Positions 25,130 to 52,389 of a DNA stretch of 64,000 nt are shown here, in pieces. The translations under genes were made by a program, and so were the position numbers. The stretch's first letter is position 1, and each line of letters begins with the position of its first letter. Under the pieces are notes generated by a model. That model was not told the DNA's origin, did no database searches, and saw nothing but the letters and a program-made list of their open reading frames with translations. This DNA is from Streptomyces antibioticus (GTDB lineage: Bacteria; Actinomycetota; Actinomycetes; Streptomycetales; Streptomycetaceae), in the NCBI RefSeq assembly GCF_001514065.1, contig NZ_KQ948426.1, forward strand, positions 434,001 through 498,000, read 5' to 3'.

Positions 25130-25795
25130 TCAATGCCGCTGCTGTTCCGCCTGCATGCGCGCCACGTACGCCGCCGCCTGCGAGCGTCGCTCCATACCGA
25201 GTTTGGACAGCAGACTGGACACGTAATTCTTGATCGTCTTCTCGGCCAGGTGCAGCCGCTCACCGATCACCCGGTTGGTGAGCCCCTCCCCGATCAGATC
25301 GAGGATCCTGCGTTCCTGTTCCGTGAGGTGCGCGAGCCGGTCGTCGCCCTTGGCGGTGCCGCCGTCCCGCAGCCGCTCCAGCACGCGCGCGGTGGCCACC
25401 GGGTCGAGCAGCGACTTGCCGGCCGCGACGTCCCGCACCGCCGACAGCAGCTCATTGCCGCGGATGGCCTTGAGGACGTACCCGGAGGCCCCCGCCATGA
25501 TCGCGTCGAAGAGGGCCTCGTCGTCGGCGAAGGAGGTCAGCATGAGGCACTTGACGTCCTCGTCCCGCGACCGGATCTCCCGGCAGACCTCCACGCCGCT
25601 GCCGTCCGGCAGCCGTACGTCGAGGACCGCGACGTCGGGCCGGGTGGCCGGGATCCGCACCAGCGCGTCGGCCGCCGTACCGGCCTCGCCCACCACCTCG
25701 ATGTCGTCCTCGACCGAGAGCAGCTCATGGACGCCTCGACGGACCACCTCATGGTCATCGAGAAGAAATACGGTGATTTTTCCGTCTTCGCGCAC
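25130..25795 (-). CDS. NarL/LuxR-type response regulator (no adjacent kinase)
   Basis: 221-aa two-component response regulator. The receiver domain shows [12 protein letters not shown] (acidic pocket), [11 protein letters not shown] (phospho-acceptor Asp), [10 protein letters not shown] (Thr/Ser) and YVLKAIRG (Lys). The output domain is a LuxR helix-turn-helix ([36 protein letters not shown], in part). No histidine kinase is encoded next to it, so it is an orphan in this window. The GTG at 25795 was chosen; a TTG four codons earlier is possible. It is divergent from the first bkd operon, with the tandem palindromes in between as possible targets. Confidence 0.9.
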
Positions 25796-33366: not shown

Positions 33367-34211
33367 GCACCGCGACCACCACCGAGGCCAAGGATCTCGC
33401 CCCCGTCAGCGCCGAGTCGCTGGCCGCCCTGCTGGTCGCCGGGGAGCGGCCGCCGCGCCCCAGCGCGCTCTCGGCCTCCCTCACCTTCGGCTGGCGGGCG
33501 ATCCTCAAGATCAAGCACGTCCCCGAGCAGCTCTTCGACGTGACCGCGTTCCCGATCATGATGGTGCTGATGTACACGTACCTGTTCGGGGGCGCCCTGG
33601 CCGGCTCCCCGAAGGAGTACATCCAGTTCCTGCTGCCGGGCATCCTGGTGATGTCGGTCGTGATGATCACGATGTACACGGGCGTCTCCGTGAACACCGA
33701 CATCGAGAAGGGCGTCTTCGACCGGTTCCGGTCGCTGCCGATCTGGCGGCCGTCGACGATGGTCGGCTATCTGCTGGGCGACGCCCTGCGCTACACGATC
33801 GCGTCGGTCGTGATGCTCGTCGTCGGCATGATCATCGGCTACCGGCCGGACGGCGGACTCGGCGGTGTCCTCGCGGGGATCGCGCTGCTGGTCGTGTTCT
33901 CGTTCGCGTTCTCGTGGATCTGGACCATGTTCGGGCTGCTGCTGCGCACCGAGAAGTCGGTGATGGGCGTCAGCATGATGGTGATCTTCCCGCTGACCTT
34001 CCTGTCCAATGTGTTCGTCGACCCGAGGACCATGCCGGGCTGGCTCCAGGCCTTCGTCAACAACAGCCCGATCACGCATCTGTCCTCGGCGGTGCGCGGG
34101 CTGATGGCGGGCGACTGGCCCGCCGACGAGATCGCCTGGTCGCTGGGGTGGGCGGGCCTGTTCGTCGCCGTCTTCGGCCCGGTCACCATGCGGCTCTACA
34201 ACCGCAAGTGA
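33363..34211 (+). CDS. ABC-2 type permease, DrrB-type
   Basis: 282-aa integral membrane subunit with about six transmembrane segments (for example [80 protein letters not shown]). The cytoplasmic loop [15 protein letters not shown] is the EAA-like coupling segment of ABC-2/DrrB permeases. Its ATG overlaps the DrrA-type gene by 4 bases, so a two-gene exporter operon is clear. It abuts the convergent channel gene with no gap. Confidence 0.92.
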
Positions 34212-37654: not shown

Positions 37655-37802
37655 TCGCGATCACAGGGAACGCGTGGGGCTCCGCGATCGCACGGGGCCA
37701 CTCGCGCGACCCCGCGATCACGGAGGGCACGGGAGGCGCCTCGCAGCCCTGAGCGCATGGGGCGCCTCCCTCTCGGGTGCGCTGGAGGCGTCCCGCGATC
37801 AC
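37655..37802. repeat. four scattered CCGCGATCAC-like repeats
   Basis: TCGCGATCAC (37655), CCGCGATCGC (37682), CCGCGATCAC (37712) and CCGCGATCAC (37793) lie in the 163-base gap between the E2 gene of bkd operon 2 and mobA; the last overlaps the E2 stop codon. Spacing is irregular (27, 30, 81). The function is unknown; they could bind a protein or be chance reuse of a GC-rich word. Confidence 0.5.
37731..37770 (-). terminator. terminator after bkd operon 2
   Basis: Perfect 10-bp inverted repeat GGGAGGCGCC/GGCGCCTCCC with a 20-base loop, 29 bases past the E2 stop. Confidence 0.6.
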
Positions 37803-39130
37803 AACGTGCGCAGCAGCACCGCCGGTTGTTCGACGCAGTCCGCCACGTACCGCAGGAAACCGCCCGCCGTGCCGCCGTCGCAGACGCGGTGGTCGAAGGT
37901 GAGCGACAGCTGGACGACCTGCCGGACCGCCAGCTCGCCCTCGTGCACCCACGGCTTGGGGACGATGCGGCCGACGCCGAGCATCGCGGCCTCGGGGTGG
38001 TTGATGATCGGGGTGGAGCCGTCGACGCCGAAGACGCCGTAGTTGTTCAACGTGAAGGTCCCGCCGGTGAGTTCGCCGGGGGTGAGGGTGCCGGTGCGGG
38101 CCGCCTCGGTCAGCCGGGCGAACTCCGCGGTCAGCGACTCCGCGTCCCGCGCGTGGGCGTCCCGGACGACCGGTACGACGAGCCCGCGCTCGGTCTGGGC
38201 GGCGAAGCCGATGTGGACCTGGTCGAACTGGACGACCTCCCTCGCCGCCATGTCGACCGTGGAGTTGAGCTCGGGGTAGCGGGCCAGAGCCGCCGTGCAG
38301 ATGCGGGCCAGCAGGGCGAGCAGGGAGATCTTCGATCCCCCGGCGGCGTTCATCGCGGCACGCGCACGCATGAGTTCGGTCGCGTCGGCGTCGACCCAGC
38401 AGGTGGCGTCGGGGATCTCGCGCCGGCTGCGGGACAGCTTGTCGGCGACGGCACCGCGGATGCCCTTGAGGGGGGTGCGGGTGCCTCCGGCGACAGGGGC
38501 GGCCGGGGTGGGCGTCGGTTCCGGAGCCGATGTGAGTGCCGGTGCGGCCGTCGGCTGGGAGGCGGTGCGTCCCTGGGCCGTGGCCGCGCGCAGCGCGTAC
38601 TCCACGTCCGCCCGCAGGATCAGCCCCTCGGGGCCGGAGCCGGTCAGCTCCCGCAGGTCCAGGCCGTTCTCCCGGGCCAGCTTGCGCACCAGCGGCGAGA
38701 TCACCGGAACAGGCCCTTCCACCGGTTCGGGAACCGCCGGCCGCCCGTTCGCAGCCATGGGCGCCGCGGGCCTCCGTACCCTTCTGCGCCGCGCCGGTGC
38801 CTCCGAAGTGCCGTATCCCACCAGCACGTTCCCCGAGCCCTCGGCCGGCGCGCCCGTCTCATCCGCCGGACCGCCGGAGGCAGGCGCCCCCACGGCGACC
38901 GTGATCAGCGGCGCGCCCACGGGCAGTTCCGTGCCCTCCTCACCGAAGCGGGCCGTGACGACACCCCCGTACGGGCTGGGCACGTCGACCAGCGCCTTGG
39001 CGGTCTCGACCTCGACGACCGGCTGGTCGACGGCGACCACGTCACCGACCTCCACCAGCCAGCGGACGATCTCCGCCTCGGTGAGCCCCTCCCCGAGGTC
39101 GGGGAGCTTGAACTCCAGCACCTGTGCCAT
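37799..39130 (-). CDS. bkdC: branched-chain 2-oxo acid dehydrogenase E2 (cluster 2)
   Basis: 443-aa dihydrolipoyl acyltransferase paralogous to that at 28.3-29.7 kb. It has one lipoyl domain (EVETAKALVDVPSP with the modified Lys), an Ala/Pro/Thr-rich linker, an E1-binding domain (VRKLARENGLDLRELTGSG) and a catalytic domain ending SLTFDHRVCDGGTAGGF, the HxxxDG-equivalent His and Asp. The start at ATG 39130 shares one base with the E1 beta stop (TGATG). It is the last gene of the operon, followed by a hairpin. Confidence 0.93.
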   Translation of the reverse strand: MAQVLEFKLPDLGEGLTEAEIVRWLVEVGDVVAVDQPVVEVETAKALVDVPSPYGGVVTARFGEEGTELPVGAPLITVAVGAPASGGPADETGAPAEGSGNVLVGYGTSEAPARRRRVRRPAAPMAANGRPAVPEPVEGPVPVISPLVRKLARENGLDLRELTGSGPEGLILRADVEYALRAATAQGRTASQPTAAPALTSAPEPTPTPAAPVAGGTRTPLKGIRGAVADKLSRSRREIPDATCWVDADATELMRARAAMNAAGGSKISLLALLARICTAALARYPELNSTVDMAAREVVQFDQVHIGFAAQTERGLVVPVVRDAHARDAESLTAEFARLTEAARTGTLTPGELTGGTFTLNNYGVFGVDGSTPIINHPEAAMLGVGRIVPKPWVHEGELAVRQVVQLSLTFDHRVCDGGTAGGFLRYVADCVEQPAVLLRTL

Positions 39131-40134
39131 CAGCTCTCGGCCTCCCACTGCAGACGCCCCACGGCGTCCAGGATCCGGTCCACGCCGGGCAGGTGGTGAC
39201 GCTCCAGCATCGGCGGCGGGTAGGGGATGTCGAACCCGGCCACGCGCAGCACCGGCGCCTCCAGATGGTGGAAGCAGCGCTCCATGACACGGGCCGCGAT
39301 CTCCCCGCCCGGGCCGCCGAACCCGCCCGACTCGTGCACGACGACCGCGCGTCCGGTCCGCCGTACCGAGGCGCAGACCGTCTCGTCGTCGAACGGCACC
39401 AGGGAGCGCAGGTCGACGACTTCGAGGTCCCACCCCTCGGCCCGGGCCGCCTCGGCGGCTTCGAGGCAGACGGGTACGGACGGCCCGTACGTGATGAGCG
39501 TGGCGCTCCGGCCCGAGCGCCGCACCACCGCGCGGCCTATCGGTTCAACGCTCTGGGGCTCCTCGGGGTTCCAGGAGTCCTTCGACCAGTACAGGCGCTT
39601 GGGTTCGAGGAAGACGACCGGGTCGTCGGAGGCGATCGCGGCGCGCAGCAGGCCGTAGGCGTCGGCGACCGTGGCGGGCGCGACGACATGGAGCCCCGGG
39701 GTCGCCAGGTAGTACGCCTCGGAGGAGTCGCTGTGGTGCTCGACGCCGCCGATGCCGCCGCCGTAGGGGACGCGGATGGTGATCGGGAGCGGCATGGTGC
39801 CGCGCGTGCGGTTGCGCATGCGGGCGACATGGCTGATGAGCTGCTCGAACGCCGGGTAGGCGAACGCGTCGAACTGCATCTCCACGACCGGCCGCAGCCC
39901 GTACATCGCCATGCCGACGGCGGTGCCGAGGATGCCGGCCTCGGCGAGCGGGGTGTCGGTGCAGCGGTCCTCGCCGAACTCCTTGGCGAGGCCGTCGGTG
40001 ACCCGGAAGACGCCGCCGAGGGTGCCGACGTCCTCGCCCATGACGTGGACGGTGGGGTCGGCGGCCATCGCGTCGCGCATCGCGCGCGTGAGGGCCTGCG
40101 CCATGGTGGCGGGCTTCACCGCGACGGTGGTCAT
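39130..40134 (-). CDS. bkdB: branched-chain 2-oxo acid dehydrogenase E1 beta (cluster 2)
   Basis: 334-aa transketolase-like beta subunit: VHVMGEDVGTLGGVFRVTDGL, DTPLAEAGILGTAVGMAM, VVEMQFDAFAYPAFEQL, VPYGGGIGGVEHHSDS and FLEPKRLYW match cluster 1 closely. It overlaps the E1 alpha stop by 4 bases and E2 by 1 base, so the three are translationally coupled. The Glu of MGEDVG is the expected ThDP activator. Confidence 0.93.
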   Translation of the reverse strand: MTTVAVKPATMAQALTRAMRDAMAADPTVHVMGEDVGTLGGVFRVTDGLAKEFGEDRCTDTPLAEAGILGTAVGMAMYGLRPVVEMQFDAFAYPAFEQLISHVARMRNRTRGTMPLPITIRVPYGGGIGGVEHHSDSSEAYYLATPGLHVVAPATVADAYGLLRAAIASDDPVVFLEPKRLYWSKDSWNPEEPQSVEPIGRAVVRRSGRSATLITYGPSVPVCLEAAEAARAEGWDLEVVDLRSLVPFDDETVCASVRRTGRAVVVHESGGFGGPGGEIAARVMERCFHHLEAPVLRVAGFDIPYPPPMLERHHLPGVDRILDAVGRLQWEAES

Positions 40135-41261
40135 GGAGTCTCCCCCTCGGCTTCCAGCTCGGCCTGCAACTGGGCGCGCTGCTCCAGCAGTTGCGGGGTG
40201 GGTTCGGCGTAGACGTGGGCGAACAGGTCCATGGGGTCGAGGACCGGGTCCTGGTTCATGCGCTCGCGCAGGTCGGCGGCCATGGTCTCGGCGGCGTCGC
40301 GGGCGGCCTGGATGCCGGCGTCGTCGAGGAGACCTCGCGTGGTCAGCTCGTGTTCGAGGAGCTTGATCGGGTCGTGGTCGCGCCAGGCGTCGACCTCGGC
40401 GTCGCCGCGGTAGCGGGTCGCGTCGTCGGCGTTGGTGTGGGCCTCCACGCGGTACGTGATGGCCTCGACGAGGGTGGGGCCGCCGCCCGCGCGCGCGTGC
40501 CGTACGGCGTCGGCGAGGACCTGGTGCACGGCCGCCGCGTCGTTGCCGTCCACCAGCCGGCCGGGCATACCGTAGCCGACGGCCTTGTGGGCCAGCGACG
40601 GGGCCGCGGTCTGCTTGGCGAGCGGGACGGAGATCGCGAAGCCGTTGTTCTGGACGAGGAAGACGACCGGCGCCTGCCAGACGGCGGCGAAGTTCAGCGC
40701 CTCGTGGAAGTCGCCCTCGCTGGTGCCGCCGTCGCCGACCAGGGCGAGCGCGACCACGTCGTCGCCCTTGAGTCGGGCGGCGTGCGCGAGGCCCACGGCG
40801 TGCGGGAGCTGGGTGGCCAGCGGGGTGCACAGGGGGGCGATCCGGTGCTCGTGCGGGTCGTAGCCGGTGTGCCAGTCGCCGCGCAGCAGCGTCAGCGCCT
40901 CGACGGGGTCGAGGCCGCGGGCGACGGCGGCGAGGGTGTCGCGGTAGCTGGGGAAGAGCCAGTCACGGTCCTCCAGGACCAGCGCGGCGGCGACCTCGCA
41001 GGCCTCCTGGCCGGTGCTGGAGGGATAGACGGCGAGGCGGCCCTGCTTGGTGAGGGCGGTCGCCTGCGCGTTGTACCGACGGCCGCGCACCAGTTCGGCG
41101 TAGAGGCGGCGCAGCAGGCCGGGGTCGGCCTTGCCGGCGGCCTCGGTGCCGAGGACGCGGTACGGCTCCGCGTCCGGCAGCAGCGGCGCGGGGTCGGTAC
41201 GGGGCTGCCAGGCGGGCGGCGGCGATGGCCGGTACCCGCCCCGCTGCTCCATGACCGTCAT
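40131..41261 (-). CDS. bkdA: branched-chain 2-oxo acid dehydrogenase E1 alpha (cluster 2)
   Basis: 376-aa ThDP-binding alpha subunit. The cofactor motif is VGDGGTSEGDFHEALNFAAVWQAPVVFLVQNN (signature), with WLFPSYRDTLAAVARG and YRVEAHTNADDATRYRG around the active site. The ATG at 41261 was chosen because GAGGAGGTG sits 7 bases upstream; the frame extends 13 codons further. It is the first gene of operon 2, with an ACCGAttGTTCGGT operator 61 bases upstream of the start and the Lrp-type regulator divergent beyond it. Confidence 0.93.
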   Translation of the reverse strand: MTVMEQRGGYRPSPPPAWQPRTDPAPLLPDAEPYRVLGTEAAGKADPGLLRRLYAELVRGRRYNAQATALTKQGRLAVYPSSTGQEACEVAAALVLEDRDWLFPSYRDTLAAVARGLDPVEALTLLRGDWHTGYDPHEHRIAPLCTPLATQLPHAVGLAHAARLKGDDVVALALVGDGGTSEGDFHEALNFAAVWQAPVVFLVQNNGFAISVPLAKQTAAPSLAHKAVGYGMPGRLVDGNDAAAVHQVLADAVRHARAGGGPTLVEAITYRVEAHTNADDATRYRGDAEVDAWRDHDPIKLLEHELTTRGLLDDAGIQAARDAAETMAADLRERMNQDPVLDPMDLFAHVYAEPTPQLLEQRAQLQAELEAEGETP

Positions 41262-41321: not shown

Positions 41322-41335
41322 ACCGATTGTTCGGT
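41322..41335. promoter_or_regulatory. PaaR-box-like operator in front of bkd operon 2
   Basis: ACCGATTGTTCGGT differs by one base from the paa operator core found at 44100 and 48760 (ACCGAnCGnTCGGT). It sits 61 bases upstream of the E1 alpha start codon, where a bound repressor could act. The regulator is inferred to be the TetR protein encoded at 41.9-42.5 kb. Confidence 0.6.
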
Positions 41336-41364
41336 CGTCGGCACATTTTGGCTACAGGCCCCCT

Positions 41365-41396
41365 CAGGCTGTGGACAAACGGTTCTCCACAGCCTG
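41365..41396. promoter_or_regulatory. 11-bp inverted repeat with two DnaA-box-like cores
   Basis: CAGGCTGTGGA (41365-41375) and TCCACAGCCTG (41386-41396) form a perfect inverted repeat with 10 bases between, in the divergent gap before the Lrp-type gene. It contains TGTGGACAA (41370-41378, the complement of the Streptomyces DnaA-box consensus TTGTCCACA) and TTCTCCACA (41383-41391). It may be the Lrp/BkdR operator, a DnaA-binding site, or both. Confidence 0.5.
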
Positions 41397-41436
41397 CAAT
41401 GAACGCAGTACGTCCATGGTAGGGAGGCGGGGGGAC

Positions 41437-41937
41437 ATGGCACCTGAACAAATGGCCGAAGGACCGGAGGGTGGCGTCCCCCTGCCACCCCCGCGTCCTC
41501 TCGACGCCATCGATCAGGACATCCTCCAGATGCTCCAGGTCGACGGCCGTGCCTCGATAAGGTCCGTCGCCGAACGTGTCCACGTCTCCCGCGCCAACGC
41601 CTACGCGCGTATCAACCGCCTCATCGAGGACGGCGTGATCCGCGGCTTCGGGGCCCGCGTCGACCACGAACGCGCGGGTCAGGGCACCTCGGCGTACATC
41701 ACCCTGAAGATCGTCCAGAACACCTGGCGCACGGTCCGCGAGCAACTGCGCCAGCTCCCCGGCGCGTCCCACATCGCCCTGGTCGGCGGCGACTTCGACG
41801 TCCTGCTGCTGGTGCACACGCCGGACAACAGATCCCTGCGCGAGCTGGTCCTCACCCGCCTCCAGGCCATCCCGGAGGTACTGAGCACGCGCACGCTCCT
41901 GGTCTTCGAGGAGGAGGACCTGGAGCCGCAGGGCTGA
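41437..41937 (+). CDS. Lrp/AsnC-family regulator (BkdR-like)
   Basis: 166-aa regulator: N-terminal AsnC-type helix-turn-helix (LDAIDQDILQMLQVDGRASIRSVAERVHVSRANAYARINRL, in part) and C-terminal RAM ligand domain (IALVGGDFDVLLLVHTPDNRSLRELVL, in part). A disordered leader of about 20 residues precedes the DNA-binding domain. It is divergent from bkd operon 2, the arrangement of bkdR genes that control branched-chain oxo acid dehydrogenase operons in response to branched amino acids. ATG 41437 was chosen; an in-frame ATG seven codons earlier (41416) is also possible. Confidence 0.85.
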   Translation: MAPEQMAEGPEGGVPLPPPRPLDAIDQDILQMLQVDGRASIRSVAERVHVSRANAYARINRLIEDGVIRGFGARVDHERAGQGTSAYITLKIVQNTWRTVREQLRQLPGASHIALVGGDFDVLLLVHTPDNRSLRELVLTRLQAIPEVLSTRTLLVFEEEDLEPQG

Positions 41938-41938
41938 G

Positions 41939-42529
41939 TCAGCCGGCGTTCCTGAGTCCCCCGAACACCAGCTGCGCCACCGCGTCCGCCACTTCGCGCT
42001 CGTTCATCCCGCGCCCGTCCGGCCGGTACCACTCCACGATGGAGTTGATCATCCCGAAGACGAGCCGGGTCGCGAGGCGCACCTCCACGTCGCCGCGTAC
42101 GTCCCCCTCGGCGGCCGCGGCCTTCAGCAGTTCGGCGACCCGGTGGTCGAACTCGCGGCGGCGCTCCAGGGCCCAGCGCTCGGTGCCGGTGTTGCCGCGG
42201 ACGCGCAGCAGCAGGGTGACGTAGGGGAGTTCGGCGATGAGGACCTCGACCATGCGCCGGACCACGTACTCCAGGCGCTCGGCGGCGTGCCCCACGCGCG
42301 CGTGCTCCTCGTCGAGGATGCCGAACAGGCCGTCCAGCGCACGGCTGACGGCCCGCCGCAGCAGCTCCTCCTTGCCCGCCACGTGGTGGTAGATCGAGGA
42401 CTTGGAGATCCCGGCCGCCTTGGAGAGGTGCTCCATGGAGGTGCCGTCGTAGCCGCGCTCGTTGAAGACCTGGACGGCGACGGACAGCAGCGTCTCGGGG
42501 GTGTACGTGTCGCGCTTGGCGGTGGTCAT
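41939..42529 (-). CDS. TetR-family regulator (PaaR-like)
   Basis: 196-aa repressor: the N-terminal TetR helix-turn-helix lies at about residues 10-55 (LLSVAVQVFNERGYDGTSMEHLSKAAGISKSSIYHHVAGKEEL, in part), followed by a helical ligand domain (YVVRRMVEVLIAELPYVTLLLRV, MINSIVEWYRPDGRGM). It is coupled by a 4-base overlap to the 3-hydroxyacyl-CoA dehydrogenase gene of the paa region, and the ACCGATCGTTCGGT operator precedes that operon. This supports a PaaR-type, phenylacetyl-CoA-responsive role with autoregulation. It converges with the Lrp-type gene with only one base between stop codons. Confidence 0.85.
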   Translation of the reverse strand: MTTAKRDTYTPETLLSVAVQVFNERGYDGTSMEHLSKAAGISKSSIYHHVAGKEELLRRAVSRALDGLFGILDEEHARVGHAAERLEYVVRRMVEVLIAELPYVTLLLRVRGNTGTERWALERRREFDHRVAELLKAAAAEGDVRGDVEVRLATRLVFGMINSIVEWYRPDGRGMNEREVADAVAQLVFGGLRNAG

Positions 42530-44043
42530 GACGTACTGCCCTCCCTCTTGTCGGTGGCGTACGCGTGGCGGTACAGCGCGAGGGACGGCGCGTACCGCCC
42601 GGAGGGGTCGCGCAGGTGCAGGTCGTCCAGGAGCGCGTAGGCCCAGTTGCGGCCCAGCCGGCGGCTCCATTCGAAGGGGCCCAGGGGGTAGTTGACCCCG
42701 AGCCGCATCGCTGTGTCGATGTCCTCCTCCGTGGCCACGCCCTTGGCCAAGGCGTCGTGCGCGAGGTCGACGATCCGGGCGACCGTGCGCGCGACGATCA
42801 TGCCGGGGACGTCTCCGATGACGCTGACGTCCTTGCCGAGCGCCTGGAAGAGGCCGATGGCCTCGGCGAGGGTCTGCGGGGCGGTGTCCTGGGAGGCGGA
42901 CAGGGCGATGCGGGTGGCGCGGCGGTAGTCGAGGGCGAGGTCGAAATAGACCACGTCCCGGAACTCCACCGACGTCTGCCCGTCCGCGAGCGCCAGCTGG
43001 CCGCCGCTCGGCAGCACCAACCGGGTGCCGTAGTCCTCCTCGTCCTCGCGGACCTGGATGCCCGCCTCGCGGATCAGGGCGAGCAGCTCGGAGGCGGGGC
43101 CCAGGTCGCCCTCGGCAGTGACGTGGGCGGGCGGCTGGGAGGGTTCGGCGGTGTGCGGCTCGGCGGGCTCGGCGTCCGGCCCGTGGTCGTACCAGCCGTG
43201 CCCGCTCTTGCGGCCGAGGCGGCCCGACTCGACCAGGCGGCGCTGGGCGAGCGAGGGGGTGAAGCGGACGTCCCGGAAGAAGGACTCCCAGACCGAGTGC
43301 GTGACGGACTCGTTGACGTCCTGCCCGATGAGGTCGGTGAGCTCGAACGCGCCCATTTTGAAGCCGCCGGACTCGCGCAGCACCGCGTCGATGGTGGCGG
43401 GGTCGGCGCCCTGGGCCTCGTAGACCGCGAACGCCTCGGCGTAGAAGGGCCGGGCGATGCGGTTGACGATGAAGCCGGGGGTGTCGGCGCAGGCGACCGG
43501 TGTCTTGCCCCACGCGCGTGCCGTCTCGTACGCGCGCGTGGCCGACGTGACGTCGGTGGCGAACCCGGAGACGACCTCGACGAGCGGCAGCAGCGGGGCC
43601 GGGTTGAAGAAGTGCAGGCCCACGAGACGGCCGGGATTGCGCAGGGCGCCGCCGATCGCGGTCACCGACAGGGAGGAGGTGTTGGTGGCGAGCAGACAGT
43701 CCTGGTCGACCACGTCCTCCAGCTCCCGGAACAGCTCCTGCTTGACGTCCAACCGCTCCAGGACGGCCTCGACCACCAGGGAGCAGTCGGCGAGGTCGGC
43801 GAGCGTGCCGGCGGCCGTCAGACGGGCGCGTGCCGCGTCCCGGTCGGTGCCGGTGAGGCGGTCCTTCTCGACGAGCCGGTCGAGGCGGGCGCCGATCGCG
43901 TCGGCCGCCGCCTGGGCACGCCCGGGGGCGGTGTCGTACAGCCGTACGGGGTGGCCGGCGACCAACGCGACCTGGGCGATGCCCTGGCCCATGGTGCCGG
44001 TGCCGACGACGGCCACGGGGCTGCTGAGGTCGAGTGCTGTCAT
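42526..44043 (-). CDS. 3-hydroxyacyl-CoA dehydrogenase (PaaH-like)
   Basis: 505-aa NAD-dependent enzyme oxidising 3-hydroxyacyl-CoA in the lower phenylacetate pathway (or 3-hydroxybutyryl-CoA). The Rossmann motif is VAVVGTGTMGQGIAQVALVAGH; SSLSVTAIG, LVGLHFFNPAPLLPLVEVV (catalytic His-containing), DTPGFIVNRIARPF and ELTDLIGQDVN are the family signatures. A second C-terminal 3HCDH domain (MRLGVNYPLGPFEWSRRLG) makes it the long, about 500-aa class seen in paa clusters. It starts at ATG 44043 and is cotranscribed with the TetR gene downstream. Confidence 0.93.
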   Translation of the reverse strand: MTALDLSSPVAVVGTGTMGQGIAQVALVAGHPVRLYDTAPGRAQAAADAIGARLDRLVEKDRLTGTDRDAARARLTAAGTLADLADCSLVVEAVLERLDVKQELFRELEDVVDQDCLLATNTSSLSVTAIGGALRNPGRLVGLHFFNPAPLLPLVEVVSGFATDVTSATRAYETARAWGKTPVACADTPGFIVNRIARPFYAEAFAVYEAQGADPATIDAVLRESGGFKMGAFELTDLIGQDVNESVTHSVWESFFRDVRFTPSLAQRRLVESGRLGRKSGHGWYDHGPDAEPAEPHTAEPSQPPAHVTAEGDLGPASELLALIREAGIQVREDEEDYGTRLVLPSGGQLALADGQTSVEFRDVVYFDLALDYRRATRIALSASQDTAPQTLAEAIGLFQALGKDVSVIGDVPGMIVARTVARIVDLAHDALAKGVATEEDIDTAMRLGVNYPLGPFEWSRRLGRNWAYALLDDLHLRDPSGRYAPSLALYRHAYATDKREGSTS

Positions 44044-44066
44044 GTGCGCGATCCTCCCGCACGGGG

Positions 44067-44075
44067 TTTTCCACA
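44067..44075. promoter_or_regulatory. DnaA-box-like TTTTCCACA
   Basis: A DnaA-box-type 9-mer between the 3HCDH start and the PaaR-type operator, one of six similar sites seen in 41-57 kb. Binding is not demonstrated. Confidence 0.35.
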
Positions 44076-44099
44076 GATGCGGCGGACCCCCTTGTCCCG

Positions 44100-44113
44100 A
44101 CCGATCGTTCGGT
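44100..44113. promoter_or_regulatory. PaaR-type operator between 3HCDH and paaN
   Basis: ACCGATCGTTCGGT, an inverted-repeat core shared with the site before paaA (48760, the exact complement). It lies in the 172-base divergent gap serving both the 3HCDH-tetR operon and paaN. It resembles the core of the PaaR operator known from Corynebacterium (recalled from memory). Confidence 0.7.
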
Positions 44114-44141
44114 TACTCTAACTCTGACTGGCCGTTCCTGC

Positions 44142-44161
44142 CCATGGTTCCGACCATGGTT
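44142..44161. repeat. CCATGGTT direct repeat upstream of paaN
   Basis: CCATGGTT occurs twice with a 12-base period (44142-44149, 44154-44161), forming also a CCATGGT/ACCATGG inverted repeat, 55 bases before the paaN start. It could be a second regulator's site or a leader structure. Confidence 0.45.
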
Positions 44162-44215
44162 GTGCCCAGGTCATGAGCTCGACGCAGAGTTCTCCAGACG
44201 AGGAGTTGGTCCCGC

Positions 44216-45907
44216 ATGGCCGCCGAACTGACCGCCCACGAGCTGATCGCCCAGCACCGGCCCACTCTCGACCAGGCGCTGGAAGCGATCCGCACGCGCG
44301 CGTACTGGTCACCGCACCCCGAGCACCCGAAGGCCTACGGCGAGAACGGCAGCCTGGACGCGGCGGCGGGCAAGGCGGCCTTCGACGCCCTTCTCGGCAC
44401 CCGCCTCGACCTCGGCCAGCCCGGCACGGACGGCTGGGTGTCCGGCGAAGTGTCCCCGTACGGCCCGGAGTTGGGCGTCGAGTACCCGCACGCGGACGTG
44501 GACGTGCTGCTGCCCGCCATGAAGGCGGGCCAGAAGGCGTGGCGGGAGGCCGGCGCGGAGATCCGCGCGGTGGTCTGCCTGGAGATCCTCAAGCGCATCA
44601 GCGACCGGACGCACGAGTTCGCGCACGCGGTCATGCACACCTCCGGCCAGGCCTTCATGATGGCGTTCCAGGCGGGCGGCCCGCACGCGCAGGACCGCGG
44701 CCTGGAAGCGGTGGCGTACGCGTACGTGGAGCAGGTCCGCACCCCCGACACCGCCGAGTGGTCCAAGCCCCAGGGCAAGCGCGACCCCCTCGCCCTGACC
44801 AAGCAGTTCACGCCGGTCCCGCGCGGGATCGCGCTGATGATCGGCTGCAACACCTTCCCGACGTGGAACGGCTACCCGGGCCTGTTCGCGTCCCTCGCCA
44901 CCGGCAACGCGGTCCTGGTCAAGCCGCACCCGCGCGCGGTGCTGCCGCTCGCGCTCACCGTCCAGGTCGCCCGGGAGGTGCTGGCCGGTGCCGGCTTCGA
45001 CCCGAACCTGGTGGCGCTGGCCGCCGAGCAGCCGGGCGAGGGCATCGCCAAGACCCTCGCCACGCGCCCGGAGATCCGGATCATCGACTACACCGGCTCG
45101 ACGTCGTTCGGCGACTGGCTGGAGGCCAACGCCCGCCAGGCGCAGGTCTACACGGAGAAGGCCGGCGTCAACACCGTGCTGGTCGACTCCACGGCGAACT
45201 ACAAGGGCATGCTCTCCAACCTGGCGTTCTCGCTGTCCCTGTACAGCGGCCAGATGTGCACCACCCCGCAGAACTTCCTCATCCCGCGCGACGGCATCCG
45301 CACCGACGAGGGCCCCAAGACCTTCGACGAGGTCGCCGCCGACCTGGCCCGCTCGGTCGACGGCCTGCTCGGCGACGACGCCCGGGCCAACGCCCTGCTG
45401 GGCGCGATCGTCAACCCGGACGTCAAGGCCCGCCTGGAGGCCGCGGCCGGGCTCGGCGAGGTCGCCCTCGCCTCCCGGGAGATCACCAACCCGGAGTTCC
45501 CGGACGCGGTGGTGCGCACGCCGGTCATCGTCAAGCTGGACGGCGCCAAGCCGGACGACGAGGCCGCCTACATGAGCGAGTGCTTCGGCCCGGTCTCCTT
45601 CGCCGTTGCGGTCGACTCCTCGGCGGACGCGGTGGAGCTGCTGCGGCGCACGATCCGGGAGAAGGGCGCGATGACGGTCGGCGCGTACACGACCGACGAC
45701 GAGGTCGAGCAGGCGGTCCAGGAGGTCTGCTTCGAGGAGGCCGCGCAGCTGTCCCTGAACCTCACGGGCGGGGTGTACGTCAACCAGACGGCCGCGTTCT
45801 CCGACTTCCACGGCTCGGGCGGCAATCCTGCGGCCAACGCGGCCCTCACGGACGGCGCGTTCGTCGCCAACCGCTTCCGGGTCGTGGAGGTACGCCGGGA
45901 GGCCTAG
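44216..45907 (+). CDS. paaN: phenylacetic acid degradation protein PaaN (aldehyde dehydrogenase)
   Basis: 563-aa aldehyde dehydrogenase-fold enzyme of the paa pathway, related to the oxepin-CoA ring-opening/aldehyde oxidation step. Catalytic Cys is in LYSGQMCTTPQNFLIPRDG; NAD-site stretches are GIALMIGCNTFPTWNGYPGLF and LVKPHPRAVLPLALT; EKAGVNTVLVDS holds the catalytic-face residues. Unlike E. coli PaaZ there is no hydratase domain, so the hydrolase step must be done by another protein. ATG 44216 follows GAGGAG. The gene is monocistronic and followed by the convergent TrmH gene. Confidence 0.92.
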   Translation: MAAELTAHELIAQHRPTLDQALEAIRTRAYWSPHPEHPKAYGENGSLDAAAGKAAFDALLGTRLDLGQPGTDGWVSGEVSPYGPELGVEYPHADVDVLLPAMKAGQKAWREAGAEIRAVVCLEILKRISDRTHEFAHAVMHTSGQAFMMAFQAGGPHAQDRGLEAVAYAYVEQVRTPDTAEWSKPQGKRDPLALTKQFTPVPRGIALMIGCNTFPTWNGYPGLFASLATGNAVLVKPHPRAVLPLALTVQVAREVLAGAGFDPNLVALAAEQPGEGIAKTLATRPEIRIIDYTGSTSFGDWLEANARQAQVYTEKAGVNTVLVDSTANYKGMLSNLAFSLSLYSGQMCTTPQNFLIPRDGIRTDEGPKTFDEVAADLARSVDGLLGDDARANALLGAIVNPDVKARLEAAAGLGEVALASREITNPEFPDAVVRTPVIVKLDGAKPDDEAAYMSECFGPVSFAVAVDSSADAVELLRRTIREKGAMTVGAYTTDDEVEQAVQEVCFEEAAQLSLNLTGGVYVNQTAAFSDFHGSGGNPAANAALTDGAFVANRFRVVEVRREA

Positions 45908-45915
45908 GGCCTGTC

Positions 45916-46689
45916 CTAGATCCCGCGCTGGAAGTCCGCCGTGAGGCTCCAGTGGTACAGCGTCATCCCCACGCTCGTCGCGAGGTTGTAGCTGGAGACC
46001 TGGGGCCTCATCGGCAGCGCCACCAGATGGTCGGCCCGCGCGCGCAGCTCGGCGGACAGCCCGCTGCGCTCCGAGCCGAACGCGAGGACGGCGTCGTCCG
46101 GGAGCTTCACGCCCCGGATGTCGTCGCCCTCCGGGTCGAGGGCGTAGAGCGGCCCCGGGGGCAGCTCCTCGACCGTCACCCGCTCCACCGCGGTCGCGAA
46201 GTGCAGTCCCGCGCCCCCGCGCACGACGGTCGGGTGCCAGGGGTCGAGCGTGCCCGTGGTGACGACACCGGTCGCGCCGAATCCCGCCGCCAGCCGGATG
46301 ACGGCTCCCGCGTTGCCGAGGTTGCGCGGGTTGTCCAGGACCACCACCGGCGCGGGTCGGGGCACGCGCGCCAGCGCCTCCAGGTTCGCCACGCGGGGCG
46401 GTCGTACCGCCAGGGCGGCCACTCCCGTCGGATGCGGGCGCGGCACGAGCTTCTCGTACGTCCCCGGCGCGACCTCCGTCAGCAGCGCGTCCAGCGTCTC
46501 GCGCACGTCGGAGGCCAGCTCGTCGGCGAGGGCGAGCGTGGCCGCGCGGTCGGTGGTGACCGCCACCGGGACCTCCGCCCCGAAACGCAGCGCGTGCTTG
46601 AGGGCGTGGAAGCCGTCGAGAAGGACGGCGAAGTCGGCGAGCCGGTGCCAGACGGCCACCGGGCCGGCGGGGTCGGCGGGGTCGGTCAT
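45916..46689 (-). CDS. TrmH/SpoU-family RNA 2'-O-methyltransferase
   Basis: 257-aa SAM-dependent RNA methyltransferase with the SPOUT trefoil-knot motifs: VVLDNPRNLGNAGAVIRLAAGFG (motif 1, catalytic Arg/Asn), LAFGSERSGLS (motif 2) and PMRPQVSSYNLATSVGMTLYHW (motif 3, in part). An N-terminal rRNA-binding-like domain (about 100 residues) precedes. The target could be rRNA or tRNA. Its start overlaps the HTTM gene by 4 bases, an unusual operon partner. Confidence 0.92.
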   Translation of the reverse strand: MTDPADPAGPVAVWHRLADFAVLLDGFHALKHALRFGAEVPVAVTTDRAATLALADELASDVRETLDALLTEVAPGTYEKLVPRPHPTGVAALAVRPPRVANLEALARVPRPAPVVVLDNPRNLGNAGAVIRLAAGFGATGVVTTGTLDPWHPTVVRGGAGLHFATAVERVTVEELPPGPLYALDPEGDDIRGVKLPDDAVLAFGSERSGLSAELRARADHLVALPMRPQVSSYNLATSVGMTLYHWSLTADFQRGI

Positions 46690-47882
46690 GCCGTGAAGCC
46701 TACGTGCGTCTCCTCGGCGCTCTCGGGGGCGCGGGGCTGCGGCAGCGTCGTACGGCCCCGCCCGGCCGTGAGCCGCCCACGCGCGCGTGCCGCCCAGCCG
46801 CCCAGCCGGCGCAGGAACGGCGTCGGCAGGAACACCGCGTCGGCGGCGATCATCGCCAGCGAGAAGAACGGCAGCCCGAGGACGACGGCGATCACGGCGT
46901 GCTCGGTCATCATGGCCGCCAGCAGGACGTTCTTGACCCGCCGGTTGAACAGCGTGAACGGGAAGGCGACCTGCACGGCGACGGTGCCGTAGGTGATGAG
47001 CAGCACCATGGTGGCGCTGGAGGTCAGCGCGTCGGCGAGGCCGGGCCAGGGTGAGAAGTAGTCGAGGTGCAGCGGGTAGTAGACGGCGGTGCCGTCCTGC
47101 CAGCGCGAGCCCTGGATCTTGTACCAGCCGGCCGTCGCGTAGATCAGACAGGCCTCGGCCATGATCACGAGGAGGGCGCCGTTGTGCACGATGTTGGTGA
47201 CGACGTCCAGGAAGATGCGCGGCTGGTCGGTCCGCGCGAGACGGTCGACCGCCCAGCGCACGCCCAGGGCCAGCCACACGGCCCACAGCAGCGCGGGCAC
47301 GAACGGGTCTCCCTCCAGGAGCCGGCCCGCGCCCGTCACCGCGATCAGCACCAGCCCGAGGACGATCCACAGCACCGGCCCGACCCGGTCCGGAACCTGC
47401 TCTCCACGCGCGCGTGCCCTGCGCGCGTCCAGTGACCACACCTGGCCGCACCGCGTGAACACGAGGTAGATGCACATCAGGTGCAGGACGTTGTCGCCGC
47501 CGTCGCCCATGAAGATGCTGCGGTTCTGGAGGGAGAGCACGCCGACCATGAAGAGCACGGACATCGTGCGGGTGCGCCAGCCCAGCAGCAGCAGGGCGCT
47601 GGACAGAACGGCGAGGCCGTAGACGAGTTCGAACCAGAACCGTCCGTCGGACCACATCAGCGCGGTGAACGCGCCGTTGCCGGCGATCAGCTGCTCGGCG
47701 AGGTCCCAGCTCCAGGGCCCGTCGGGGCCGTACAGCTCATTGCGGTGCGGCAGCTCGCGCAGCAGGAACAGCAGCCAGGTCGCGCTGAAGCCGATGCGGA
47801 CCACGGCGGCCTGGTAGGGGCCGAGCGCCGACTCGGTGATCCGGGCGATGGCCTGGGAGACCGCGAGGGAGAACCGGTTCAC
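46686..47882 (-). CDS. HTTM-domain membrane protein (vitamin K gamma-carboxylase-like)
   Basis: 398-aa polytopic protein with about eight hydrophobic helices, of the HTTM (horizontally transferred transmembrane) family related to vitamin K-dependent gamma-glutamyl carboxylase. Recognisable stretches: [71 protein letters not shown] and [19 protein letters not shown]. The bacterial function is unknown. It starts at GTG 47882, overlapping the DUF5819 gene by 4 bases, and ends in an ATGA overlap with the TrmH gene. Confidence 0.9.
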
Positions 47883-48628
47883 CGGGCGCCTCCCACGCGG
47901 TCGGCCGGGGTGACCGCCCACCAGGGCAGCTCCCGGTAGGCGGGCTTGTCGGAGACCTGCTCCTGGCTCCAGCCGGGCGGCCGTACGTTGGTGGACACGG
48001 ACCGTACCTGTACCCGCTCGACGCTCCCGTCGGGCCCCGCCGCGTCGTCCCGGTCGAGCCGCATCACCACGATCCGGCGCAGATACGTCTCCGACAGCGC
48101 GCCGCGCAGCCCGACCGGCCGGTTGTCGGTGCCGTGCGTGGCGGTGAAGAAGTCCCAGGCCCGGCGCAGCTCGTTCTGCTGGGTGTGGCTGGGCAGCAGA
48201 TTGCCGTCGATGACCCGGCCGTCCTCGGCGGACAGGTCGTACCAGCCGCTGGTGCGGACGGTCCCGTCCGCGGCCAGCACCTGGGCCCGCACCTGCACGG
48301 CGATGTTCTGCTGGAGCGGGTTCGGCGCGAACAGCTTCCAGTTCTGCTCGAACTCCGGGTAGACCCAGTCCTCGATCGCCCTGCCGTGCTGCTTGGTGAC
48401 CGCGTTCGCGGGCGCGACGTGCAGGAAGGTCATCCCGAGGTGCACACAGACGGTGACCGCCACGATCGCGAGGGCCAGCGCGGCCCCGATCTGGTAGGGG
48501 AGGGACAGCGCGGCGACTCCCGTACGGAGGTGCGGCGGCAGCGGCGGAGCCGGCGCGGCGGGCGGCTCGGGGGCACGCGGCTCGTCGGCCCCGCGCCGGG
48601 CCTCCGAGTCTGTGTCGTACGCGTCCAT
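47879..48628 (-). CDS. DUF5819 family membrane protein
   Basis: 249-aa protein with an Ala/Pro/Glu-rich N-terminal cytoplasmic region, one transmembrane helix ([20 protein letters not shown], about 65-84) and an extracytoplasmic domain bearing the DUF5819 signature [23 protein letters not shown]. Trp/Phe-rich ends ([19 protein letters not shown]) close the chain. DUF5819 and HTTM genes are adjacent here and overlap, suggesting one membrane complex of unknown function. The ATG at 48628 is the domain-consistent start. It is divergent from paaA. Confidence 0.85.
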
Positions 48629-48706
48629 GGCGCCCCGTTTCCCGATGTCCGGACCGTGTCTGCGGCCTGTCGCCCGGCCCCTGTCGTGCACAGGGACCCC
48701 GGCAGG

Positions 48707-48773
48707 TTATCCACAGCGGTTGACACCATACGGCGCCCGGCACACCATGGATGCGACGAACCGAACGATCGGT
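48707..48773 (+). promoter_or_regulatory. paaA promoter/operator region
   Basis: Three overlapping signals precede paaA: TTATCCACA (48707-48715, a DnaA-box match), TTGACA (48720-48725, a consensus -35 with a weak CACCAT -10 at about 48743), and the PaaR-type operator ACCGAACGATCGGT (48760-48773), 41 bases before the start codon. A repressor there would block the start of transcription of paaABCDE. The -10 and start are inferred. Confidence 0.6.
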
Positions 48774-48814: not shown

Positions 48815-49801
48815 ATGGCAACAGCAGCACAGGCGTACGACAGGACGGACACCGCCGGTCAGGACGCGTACGAGCGGGCCTTCGACGCCGCCGTGGCCGC
48901 CGACGAGCGCATCGAGCCGCGCGACTGGATGCCGGACGCCTACCGCGCCACGCTCGTCCGCCAGATCGCCCAGCACGCCCATTCCGAGATCATCGGCATG
49001 CAGCCGGAGGCGAACTGGATCACGCGCGCGCCCAGCCTGCGCCGCAAGGCCATCCTGATGGCCAAGGTCCAGGACGAGGCGGGCCACGGCCTGTACCTGT
49101 ACAGCGCCGCCGAGACCCTCGGCACCGGCCGCGACGAGCTCCTCGACAAGCTCCACTCCGGCCGCCAGAAGTACTCCTCGATCTTCAACTACCCGACCCT
49201 GACCTGGGCGGACGTCGGCGCGATCGGCTGGCTCGTGGACGGCGCCGCGATCACCAACCAGGTCCCCCTGTGCCGCTGCTCCTACGGCCCGTACGCGCGC
49301 GCGATGGTCCGTATCTGCAAGGAGGAGTCCTTCCACCAGCGCCAGGGGTACGAACTGCTGCTGGCCCTGAGCAACGGCACCCCCGAGCAGCACGCGATGG
49401 CGCAGGACGCGGTGGACCGCTGGTGGTGGCCGTCGCTGATGATGTTCGGCCCGCCCGACGACGAGTCCTCGCACTCCGCGCAGTCGATGGCCTGGAAGAT
49501 CAAGCGGCACTCCAACGACGAGCTGCGTCAGCGCTTCGTCGACATCTGCGTCCCGCAGGCCGAGTCCCTCGGCCTGACCCTCCCCGACCCGGACCTGAAG
49601 TGGAACGAGGAACGGGGACAGCACGACTTCGGCCCGATCGACTGGACCGAGTTCTGGGACGTCCTCAAGGGCAACGGCCCCTGCAACGAACAGCGGATCA
49701 CCCAGCGCAGGCGCGCCCACGAAGAGGGCGCCTGGGTCCGGGAGGCGGCGGCCGCCTACGCCGCCAAGCACGGCAACGGGACAGGAGAGCAGCAGGCATG
49801 A
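48815..49801 (+). CDS. paaA: phenylacetyl-CoA 1,2-epoxidase subunit A
   Basis: 328-aa catalytic di-iron subunit of the PaaABCE epoxidase that converts phenylacetyl-CoA to ring-1,2-epoxide. The iron ligands fall in two ExxH motifs, [14 protein letters not shown] and [15 protein letters not shown], plus upstream Glu in [30 protein letters not shown] is a family signature. It heads the paaABCDE operon (each gene overlaps the next) with a PaaR-type operator upstream. ATG 48815 follows GAGGGG. Confidence 0.95.
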
Positions 49802-50085
49802 CGAACACCGACTGGCCCCTGTGGGAGGTCTTCGTGCGCTCTCGCCGCGGCCTCTCCCACACCCACGCCGGCAGCCTGCACGCACCGGACGCGGAACTCG
49901 CCCTGCGCAACGCCCGCGACCTGTACACGCGGCGCGGCGAGGGCGTCTCGATCTGGGTCGTCCCGTCGGCCGCGATCACCGCGTCCTCCCCGGACGAGAA
50001 GGACCCGTTCTTCGAACCGGCCGCCGACAAGCCGTACCGCCACCCCACGTTCTACGAGATCCCGGAGGGGGTGAAGCACCTGTGA
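49798..50085 (+). CDS. paaB: phenylacetyl-CoA epoxidase subunit B
   Basis: 95-aa structural subunit linking the PaaAC heterodimers of the epoxidase. [41 protein letters not shown] matches PaaB (in part), with [12 protein letters not shown] and [21 protein letters not shown]. It overlaps paaA by 4 bases and paaC by 4 bases (GTGA). Confidence 0.94.
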
Positions 50086-50816
50086 CCGCCGACATGACCC
50101 TCGACGCGACCACGCGCACCGCCGCCCTGGCCCTCGGCGACGACGCCCTGGTGCTCTCCCACCGCCTTGGCGAATGGGCCGGCCACGCACCCGTCCTTGA
50201 GGAGGAGGTCGCCCTCGCCAACATCGCCCTGGACCTGCTGGGCCAGGCCCGGGTGCTGCTGTCGATGGTCGGTGACGAGGACGAACTGGCGTATCTGCGC
50301 GAGGAGCGCGCCTTCCGCAACCTCCAGCTGGTGGAGCAGCCGAACGGCGACTTCGCCCACACCATCGCCCGCCAGCTGTACTTCTCCACCTACCAGCACC
50401 TTCTGTACGCCGAACTGGCCGCCGCAGAGGGCCCGTTCGCGCCGCTCGCCGCGAAGGCCGTCAAGGAGGTCGCCTACCACCGCGACCACGCCGAGCAGTG
50501 GACCCTGCGGCTCGGCGACGGCACCGACGAGAGCCGGGAGCGGATGCGGCGGGCGTGCGGGGCGCTGTGGCGGTTCACCGGGGAGATGTTCCAGCCAGTG
50601 GCCGGCCTCGACGTCGACGGGACGGCCCTGGAGGCGGCCTGGCTCGCGTCCGTGACGGCCGTCCTCGACCGCGCCACGCTCCCGGTCCCCGAAGGGCCGC
50701 GCACGGGCGCGTGGGCGGCCGGAGCGGGCCGGCAGGGCCTGCACACCGAGTCGTTCGGCCGCATGCTCGCCGAGATGCAGCATCTGCACCGCAGCCACCC
50801 GGGGGCGTCATGGTGA
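50082..50816 (+). CDS. paaC: phenylacetyl-CoA epoxidase subunit C
   Basis: 244-aa ferritin-like structural subunit that pairs with PaaA. EEEVALANIALDLLGQARVLLSMVGDEDELAYLREERAFRN and FSTYQHLLYAEL... KEVAYHRDHAEQWTLRLGDGTDES (signatures quoted in part) are typical; the di-iron site is degenerate in this subunit. It starts at GTG 50082, overlapping paaB by 4 bases, and overlaps paaD by 7. Confidence 0.93.
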   Translation: MTADMTLDATTRTAALALGDDALVLSHRLGEWAGHAPVLEEEVALANIALDLLGQARVLLSMVGDEDELAYLREERAFRNLQLVEQPNGDFAHTIARQLYFSTYQHLLYAELAAAEGPFAPLAAKAVKEVAYHRDHAEQWTLRLGDGTDESRERMRRACGALWRFTGEMFQPVAGLDVDGTALEAAWLASVTAVLDRATLPVPEGPRTGAWAAGAGRQGLHTESFGRMLAEMQHLHRSHPGASW

Positions 50817-51331
50817 CCACGACCCCGCTGGAGGCGGAACTCCTGGAGATCGCCGGCGCGGTCCCCGACCCCGAACTGCCCGTGCTCACCCTCCAGGAGC
50901 TCGGCGTCGTCCGCGCGGTGCACGCCCACGGCACCGACACCGTCGAGGTCGAACTGACCCCGACCTACACCGGCTGCCCCGCCATCGAGGCGATGTCCCT
51001 CGACATAGAGCGGGCCCTGCACGCCCACGGCGTCCGGGACGTCACCGTCCGCACGGTGCTCACGCCCGCCTGGTCGACGGACGACATCTCGGCCGAAGGC
51101 CGCCGCAAACTCCAGGAGTTCGGCATAGCGCCCCCGCGCGTGCAGCGCACCACCGGACCGGTCCCCCTGACCCTGGGCACCACCCGCACCCTCACCGCAC
51201 CCCCCGTGCAGTGCCCGCACTGCGGCTCCGCCGACACCGAACTGCTCAGCCGTTTCTCCTCCACCGCGTGCAAGGCGCTGCGCCGCTGCCTGGCCTGCCG
51301 TGAACCGTTCGACCACTTCAAGGAGCTGTGA
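50810..51331 (+). CDS. paaD: phenylacetate pathway protein PaaD (DUF59, Zn-binding)
   Basis: 173-aa maturation-type protein of the MIP18/DUF59 family thought to help assemble iron or Fe-S in the epoxidase. The DUF59 core is VPDPELPVLTLQELGVVR and LTPTYTGCPAIEAM, with its conserved Cys. The C-terminal tail has a zinc-ribbon-like set of four or five Cys (QCPHCGS, TACKALRRCLACREPF). ATG 50810 overlaps paaC by 7 bases; a GTG one codon later is also possible. Confidence 0.92.
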   Translation: MVTTTPLEAELLEIAGAVPDPELPVLTLQELGVVRAVHAHGTDTVEVELTPTYTGCPAIEAMSLDIERALHAHGVRDVTVRTVLTPAWSTDDISAEGRRKLQEFGIAPPRVQRTTGPVPLTLGTTRTLTAPPVQCPHCGSADTELLSRFSSTACKALRRCLACREPFDHFKEL

Positions 51332-52389
51332 TGGCCCGCTTCCACGCGCTCCCGGTGGCAGCGGTCGACCGGCTCACCGACGACTCCGTGGCCCTCACCT
51401 TCACCGTGCCGCCGGAACTCGCCGAGGAGTACCGCCACGCCCCGGGCCAGCACCTCGCCCTGCGCCGCAGGGCCGACGGCACGGAGATCCGCCGCACGTA
51501 CTCCATCTGCTCCCCGGCCCCGCACACCGAGGCTCCCCGTCAGCTCCGGGTCGGCGTACGGCTGGTGGAGGGCGGTGCGTTCTCGACGTACGCGCTGAAG
51601 GAGATCAACGTCGGCGACGAGGTGGAGGTGATGACCCCGGCGGGCCGCTTCACCCTGGCCCCCGCGCCCGGGCTGTACGCGGCGATCGTCGGCGGCAGCG
51701 GCATCACGCCGGTGCTGTCGATCGTCTCGACGCTGCTGGCGCGTGAGCCCAAGGCCCGCTTCTGCCTGATCCGCAGCGACCGTACGGCCGCCTCGACGAT
51801 GTTCCTGGACGAGGTCGCCGACCTGAAGGACCGCTACCCCGAGCGGTTGCAGCTGGTGACCGTGCTGTCCCGGGAGGAGCAGCAGGCGGGCCTGCCGTCC
51901 GGGCGGCTCGACCGGGAGCGGCTGACCGGGCTGCTGCCCGCGCTGCTGCCGGTGGCGGAGGTGGCGGGCTGGTTCCTGTGCGGGCCGTTCGGCCTGGTGC
52001 AGGGCGCGGAGCGGGCCCTCAAGGAGCTCGGCGTCACGCGCACCCGGATCCACGAGGAGATCTTCCACGTCGACGCGGGCACCCCCACCGCCCCGACGAC
52101 CCCGGCGCCCGCGCACAGCACGGTCACCGCCCGGCTCGACGGCCGCGGCGGCACCTGGCCCGTCCAGGACGGCGAGTCCCTCCTGGAGACGGTCCTGCGC
52201 AACCGCTCCGACGCCCCCTACGCCTGCAAGGGCGGGGTCTGTGGCACCTGCCGCGCCTTCCTCGTCTCCGGCGAGGTCCGCATGGACCGCAACTTCGCCC
52301 TGGAGCCGGAGGAGACGGAGGCCGGCTATGTGCTGGCGTGCCAGTCCCATCCGGCGACGGAGAAGGTGGAACTGGACTTCGACCGGTAG
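51331..52389 (+). CDS. paaE: phenylacetyl-CoA epoxidase reductase subunit E
   Basis: 352-aa electron-transfer subunit feeding NADPH electrons to PaaA. Domains: FAD (RRTYSICSPAPH, residues about 55-66), NAD(P) (IVGGSGITPVLSIVSTLL) and a C-terminal plant-type 2Fe-2S ferredoxin domain whose ligands are YACKGGVCGTCRAFL and the Cys in VLACQSHP. ATG 51331 was preferred over GTG 51328 because AAGGAG ends 5-6 bases before it. It overlaps the paaD stop by one base and ends the operon. Confidence 0.94.
   Translation: MARFHALPVAAVDRLTDDSVALTFTVPPELAEEYRHAPGQHLALRRRADGTEIRRTYSICSPAPHTEAPRQLRVGVRLVEGGAFSTYALKEINVGDEVEVMTPAGRFTLAPAPGLYAAIVGGSGITPVLSIVSTLLAREPKARFCLIRSDRTAASTMFLDEVADLKDRYPERLQLVTVLSREEQQAGLPSGRLDRERLTGLLPALLPVAEVAGWFLCGPFGLVQGAERALKELGVTRTRIHEEIFHVDAGTPTAPTTPAPAHSTVTARLDGRGGTWPVQDGESLLETVLRNRSDAPYACKGGVCGTCRAFLVSGEVRMDRNFALEPEETEAGYVLACQSHPATEKVELDFDR

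Follow-up and report, generated by a model that had tools for sequence, protein, structure and literature searches.

A proposed PaaR-type operator recurs at phenylacetate promoters and before a second putative branched-chain oxo acid dehydrogenase operon in Streptomyces antibioticus

A cluster of phenylacetate (paa) genes was found beside an operon for a putative branched-chain oxo acid dehydrogenase (bkd operon 2) in a stretch of 64,000 nucleotides from Streptomyces antibioticus, which as a whole is called the window here (71% G+C, within a 10.15-Mb genome). The gene order is bkdC, bkdB, and bkdA on the minus strand, bkdR on the plus strand, tetR and paaH on the minus strand, paaN on the plus strand, and, farther on, paaABCDE on the plus strand; the E1 alpha, E1 beta, and E2 genes lie together in one operon. 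The genome has two bkd operons, and the paralogous E1 alpha gene of the first starts at 26295 (40% identity). A palindromic 14-mer of PaaR type recurs at the paa promoters and in the bkdA-bkdR gap. The features are as follows.

41322-41335, no strand: PaaR-type operator in the bkdA-bkdR gap (ACCGATTGTTCGGT, exact match)
44100-44113, no strand: operator between paaH-tetR and paaN (ACCGATCGTTCGGT, exact match)
48760-48773, no strand: operator before paaABCDE (ACCGAACGATCGGT, exact match)
41326..41354, minus: predicted bkdA promoter, TAGCCA-17-AACAAT, with its -10 inside the operator (hexamer scan, 8/12 matches)
41939..42529, minus: TetR-family regulator, proposed PaaR (phmmer to SCO3833; no NCBIfam model above cut-off)
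40131..41261, minus: bkdA, E1 alpha of bkd operon 2 (passes only TIGR03181, a pyruvate dehydrogenase model of NCBIfam)
39130..40134, minus: bkdB, E1 beta (top NCBIfam matches are E1 beta models, all below cut-off)
37799..39130, minus: bkdC, E2 acyltransferase (top NCBIfam matches are E2 models, all below cut-off)
41437..41937, plus: bkdR, Lrp/AsnC-type regulator (Lrp-type NCBIfam matches, below cut-off)
42526..44043, minus: paaH-like 3-hydroxyacyl-CoA dehydrogenase, overlapping tetR (passes NF006124; TIGR02279, PaaH, below cut-off)
44216..45907, plus: paaN (TIGR02288, PaaN, above cut-off)
48815..52389, plus: paaABCDE operon (NCBIfam models for PaaA, PaaB, and PaaC above cut-off, PaaE just below; PaaD named from position)

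The 41322 site lies 60 bp before bkdA (start 41261, minus) and 101 bp before bkdR (start 41437, plus), the 44100 site lies 56 bp before paaH (start 44043, minus) and 102 bp before paaN (start 44216, plus), and the 48760 site lies 41 bp before paaA (start 48815, plus). ACCGAACGATCGGT is the reverse complement of ACCGATCGTTCGGT, and a single central base separates the 41322 site from the 44100 site. The original prediction, which had placed these three 14-mers upstream of paaH-tetR/paaN, paaABCDE, and bkd operon 2, with one mismatch at 41322 and a TetR gene in the same stretch, was thus correct in each of its observations: the matches are exact, they stand 41 to 102 bp from the gene starts, and the TetR gene is present and overlaps paaH. 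A search of the window for the 14-mer returned five strand-matches at three places, compared with a mean of 0.11 and a maximum of 2 in 100 shuffles. The bkd site is a palindrome of the ACCGA-N4-TCGGT type in the window and in relatives' loci, and its half-sites and spacing are identical to those at paaN, paaA, and paaK. Four exact palindromes of this type were observed in the window, compared with 0.06 predicted from composition alone; the further copy, at 33948, has a different centre.

In the whole-genome search that the original prediction had proposed, ACCGANNGNTCGGT was found at 12 distinct places, 3 of them within the window, and the reversed control pattern gave 1 match. Six of the nine places outside the region are inside open frames, one is beside another TetR-like gene, one is ambiguous, and one is a fourth promoter site (C10:308692), 37 bp before a gene passing the PaaK model. 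Leaving aside the ambiguous place and the place at the other TetR-like gene, the intergenic ACCGANNGNTCGGT sites are three paa promoters plus bkd. The place by the other regulator, ACCGAGCGCTCGGT (around 3691 in L004; G000:C9:61190), is 71 bp from its TetR-like gene (3090-3620, minus) and is possibly that regulator's own operator. When two mismatches were allowed, ACCGANNNNTCGGT was found 54 times against a shuffled mean of 45.1, and 10 of 100 shuffles reached 54; since this count is not above chance, only exact half-sites are informative. No exact ACCGA-N4-TCGGT was found near the first bkd operon; a scan allowing mismatches gave a one-mismatch copy at 25262.

The TetR protein matches Streptomyces coelicolor SCO3833 (structure 2iai) with a phmmer E value of 1.9e-106 over residues 1-195 and, judged from this match, is its ortholog. 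In S. coelicolor, bkdA2 is SCO3831 and bkdR is SCO3832, in the same gene order, according to an excerpt of PMC12323332. Because the TetR passes no NCBIfam model, the name PaaR rests on the neighbourhood and the operators: the gene overlaps paaH and faces paaN, and this neighbourhood recurs in many relatives. A TAG inside the TetR gene of one relative (G089) is probably just the ordinary end of that gene, as the L045 match runs only to residue 193.

Conservation of the bkd site was examined in a genus sample of 60 pulled loci plus the window (61 loci). TetR was found in 99 of 101 genus genomes (E 1e-30), 59 of the 61 loci contain bkdA as well as bkdR, and exact ACCGATTGTTCGGT lies between them in 58 of the 59. 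The site is kept in 17 of the 19 genus loci that have no paaA in the stretch, some of these stretches having ended at contig ends; paaA may lie elsewhere in those genomes. In other genera of the family, where TetR is at least 68% identical, the exact bkd site was present in all 27 pulled loci. Loss of the 41322 site in close relatives that retain the other two, which the original prediction had named as grounds for giving up the link, is therefore not what these loci show, and the retention of the site strongly supports one shared regulator for the paa genes and bkd operon 2. The exact bkd site was also present in all 80 of the query's nearest named genomes.

Across the family, TetR was found in 143/150 genomes (E 1e-25) and in 386/394 (E 1e-45). 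The exact 14-mer occurs in 383 of the same 394 Streptomycetaceae genomes, and both occur together in 381, the location of the 14-mer at bkdA-bkdR having been checked for the pulled loci only and not for all 381 genomes. In a class-wide sample, the 14-mer was found in 24/24 genus members and in 9/222 others; the latter, from outside the family, were taken as chance rather than true sites, eight of the stretches (2.2-3 kb) being without the tested genes and the ninth genome, G170, standing outside that stretch comparison. A combined alignment was entered by 184 loci, of which 181 had bkdA next to bkdR (L034, L045, and L163 were short of one or the other). Exact ACCGATTGTTCGGT was present in 174 of the 181, the site carried one or two outer changes in three (L169, L170, and L171) and was absent in four (L161, L164, L165, and L069), and the core CGATTGTTCG was found in 177. 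These 177 core-bearing rows represent 166 distinct stretches, with some genomes entering twice. Left out of the combined count were L070 (bkdR without bkdA), the paralogous TetR loci L075-L078, L079 and L080 (flanking stretches from G010), L167 (bkd absent), L168 (a bkd paralogue in G342), and L172-L175. The palindrome is the best-conserved 14-column window among 84 aligned columns, a result favoured by the anchoring of the rows on its core.

The paa sites are similarly retained. The paaN region contains ACCGA-N4-TCGGT in 60 of 60 genus loci, and 58 of these match the window letter for letter. At paaA, all 42 genus loci whose stretch includes that gene share an identical site. At paaK, all 30 loci returned show ACCGA-N4-TCGGT, with a PaaK match in 54/61 genomes. 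Of the 80 named loci, 79 yielded paaN, each with the palindrome; paaA was found in 46, where the site is identical in 44, a variant palindrome in 1, and present with a mismatch in 1. Three loci (L012, L064, and L073) combine TetR and the bkd site with a stretch that lacks paaA and a genome that gives no PaaK hit at 1e-150; paa genes may lie elsewhere in these genomes. A second TetR with 59-64% identity was observed in some genomes (L075, L076, L077, and L078); in L075 and L077 it is near its own paaN-like gene, and L075, L077, and L078 hold ACCGAACATTCGGT or ACCGAATGTTCGGT, neither of which was found in L076.

We consider it likely that the TetR is PaaR and that it represses bkdABC of operon 2 together with the paa genes until released by phenylacetyl-CoA; binding, repression, signal, and promoter are all inferred. 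The proposed PaaR (41939-42529) would bind ACCGA-N4-TCGGT at four promoter regions, those of paaH-paaR/paaN, paaABCDE, paaK, and bkdABC operon 2. Repression is the usual outcome when a TetR dimer is bound, and at bkd the protein would cover the predicted bkdA -10 and block transcription. Accumulating phenylacetyl-CoA, a signal taken over from PaaR of other bacteria, would then release PaaR and induce bkdABC along with phenylacetate breakdown. The original prediction of one phenylacetyl-CoA-responsive repressor for paa and bkd is partly supported, namely by conservation of the sites with TetR; TetR binding, the phenylacetyl-CoA signal, and bkdABC as the target remain conjectural parts of it.

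The bkdA promoter, with its predicted -10 at 41331-41326 on the minus strand, is a weak prediction from hexamer matches: a second pair, TCCACA-19-CAAAAT (41375-41345), has an equal score in the same gap, and a stricter scan found no promoter. At paaN, TTGTCC and TACTCT flank the operator, which takes up the gap between them; at paaH it is just past TGGGCA-18-TAGAGT. The central T of the bkd site is constant though off the paa consensus, which would be explained if it is part of the minus-strand -10 AACAAT; its assignment to a bkdR -35 was dropped in favour of the bkdA -10.

GGTTNTCCACAG was observed upstream of all three promoters (41381, 44065, and 48705) and at 25 places genome-wide, compared with 2 for the reversed control. 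As a co-regulator site it was rejected: of 22 places away from the promoters, 21 were examined, and because many are near unrelated genes it was set aside as a widespread element. It resembles DnaA boxes. An inverted pair, CTGTGGACAAACGGTTCTCCACAG, in the bkd gap is also conserved across the genus.

Several observations weigh against PaaR control of bkdABC. The bkd site, to which PaaR is predicted to bind, has a centre with one fixed base unlike that of the paa sites. TetR occurs without the exact 14-mer in 5 of 386 genomes (G340, G358, G488, G604, and G688), three of which have degenerate sites. In L164, whose TetR is 63% identical, a site stands at paaN but is missing at bkd, so the bkd arm may either have been acquired within the family or have disappeared within it; L165 belongs to the same genus as L164. 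L069 retains a 72% identical TetR together with that regulator's own site, yet its bkd site is gone; the stretches taken contained neither paaN nor paaA. L069 and L164 thus tell against a simple one-to-one rule of TetR and bkd site. The only clean natural knock-out, which for its part speaks for PaaR control, is L161 (G348), whose genome is 93% complete. It keeps bkdA (67%) and bkdR (76%), has no TetR match at 1e-25, and has lost the left half-site; it retains a promoter-like pair, TGGCCG-17-GAGGAT, in place of the TAGCCA-17-AACAAT of the others.

The 14-mer occurs without TetR in two genomes (G343 and G368), whose 3-kb stretches hold none of the tested genes, and neither was found in six (G348, G353, G356, G366, G370, and G374), with an incomplete TetR match of 57% where a contig of G374 ends. 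The two-by-two table of TetR and 14-mer gives a Fisher p of 2.5e-9, calculated over related genomes. Because a bkdR match is also absent in five of the eight TetR-negative genomes, the table shows mostly whole-locus loss, and L161 is the only informative loss against 381/386 kept. Stronger evidence than the table is that both half-sites are retained alongside the paa sites, together with the case of L161.

An alternative that we hold to be unlikely is that PaaR binds the site with bkdR as its real target and reaches bkdABC only via BkdR. The distance from site to bkdR is constant in most genus loci and that on the bkdA side is variable, which could favour bkdR, and the DNA between site and bkdR is well conserved in most of these loci, unlike the stretch towards bkdA. 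However, the best promoter-like pair scores 7 on the bkdR strand versus 8 on the bkdA strand, where the -10 lies inside the site. Less probable still is that the palindrome is the operator of BkdR itself at its own divergent promoter, as its position in the bkdA-bkdR gap and the control of this complex by BkdR in Streptomyces (an excerpt of PMC8176718) might suggest; L161 has bkdR and bkdA without the site, and the same half-sites occur at paaN, paaA, and paaK, away from any bkdR. It is very improbable that the site is conserved purely as a promoter and resembles paa operators by coincidence. ATTGTT at the centre is unchanged in 177/177 core-bearing rows, even with outer changes, in rows selected by that core, but a promoter leaves unexplained both the outer ACCG and CGGT, kept in 174/181 loci, and the excess of exact palindromes in the window. 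We give hardly any credence to another TetR-family repressor at the bkd site, such as an acyl-CoA sensor of the AccR/PccD type, for although a branched-chain dehydrogenase operon of Saccharopolyspora erythraea is under direct PccD control (PMC8176718, in part), the AccR and PccD sites tabulated in the available portion of PMC10933834 are unlike the bkd site.

Branched-chain oxo acid activity of operon 2 is putative, and the sequence is compatible with other substrates: E1 alpha passes the pyruvate dehydrogenase model only, and the closest proteins of solved structure are pyruvate and 2-oxo acid dehydrogenases, so that sequence does not fix the substrate. It is conceivable, if rather doubtful, that operon 2 is not mainly for branched-chain substrates and converts phenylpyruvate to phenylacetyl-CoA in the cell. 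Its product would then serve PaaABCDE as substrate and PaaR as the expected signal, and the operator would make operon 2 a self-inducing entry from phenylalanine into the phenylacetate pathway. In Streptomyces pristinaespiralis, the pyruvate-dehydrogenase-like pair PglB/C has been suggested for this conversion (PMC7089894, in part). Joint bkd and paa induction may also simply mark growth on amino acids.

The bkd enzymes supply starter units for branched fatty acids and many Streptomyces polyketides. If correct, an aromatic-acid switch on one bkd operon would tie phenylacetate breakdown to starter-unit supply and could help explain why two bkd operons do not replace each other; bkdF mutants of Streptomyces avermitilis reportedly lose activity despite intact bkdABC.

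PaaR in Streptomyces is already known, on the accessible text of PMC10933834, from S. pristinaespiralis (SSDG_03033), where it is a TetR repressor of paa genes with a putative site AACGA-N4-TCGGT. Both regulators are paa-linked TetR proteins with sites of the same kind, a likeness drawn via the site and not the protein sequence, which is a further point to be held against our interpretation; they differ in that bkd has 0 occurrences in that text of the review. A literature search returned no paper linking PaaR and bkd, the S. pristinaespiralis and Corynebacterium glutamicum PaaR papers, in which the link may be, lying outside its coverage. A 2026 pathway survey describes PaaR as conserved in a group including Streptomyces, with 0 occurrences of bkd in the main text available (PMC13186573). 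The S. coelicolor bkdA2-bkdR gap lies between the same gene pair, and a predicted MtrA site is listed there (PMC12323332, in part); BkdR (SCO3832) and MtrA differ in regulator family and site sequence from the proposed PaaR. In Burkholderia cenocepacia and Thermus thermophilus, according to excerpts of PMC9493321, PaaR proteins are TetR repressors that bind 14-15 bp inverted repeats at several paa promoters and are released by phenylacetyl-CoA. Unlike the regulator proposed here, they have no oxo acid dehydrogenase target in the portions of the literature available, and the Burkholderia PaaR site, ACCGACCGGTCGGTT, is of the same kind as the sites described here.

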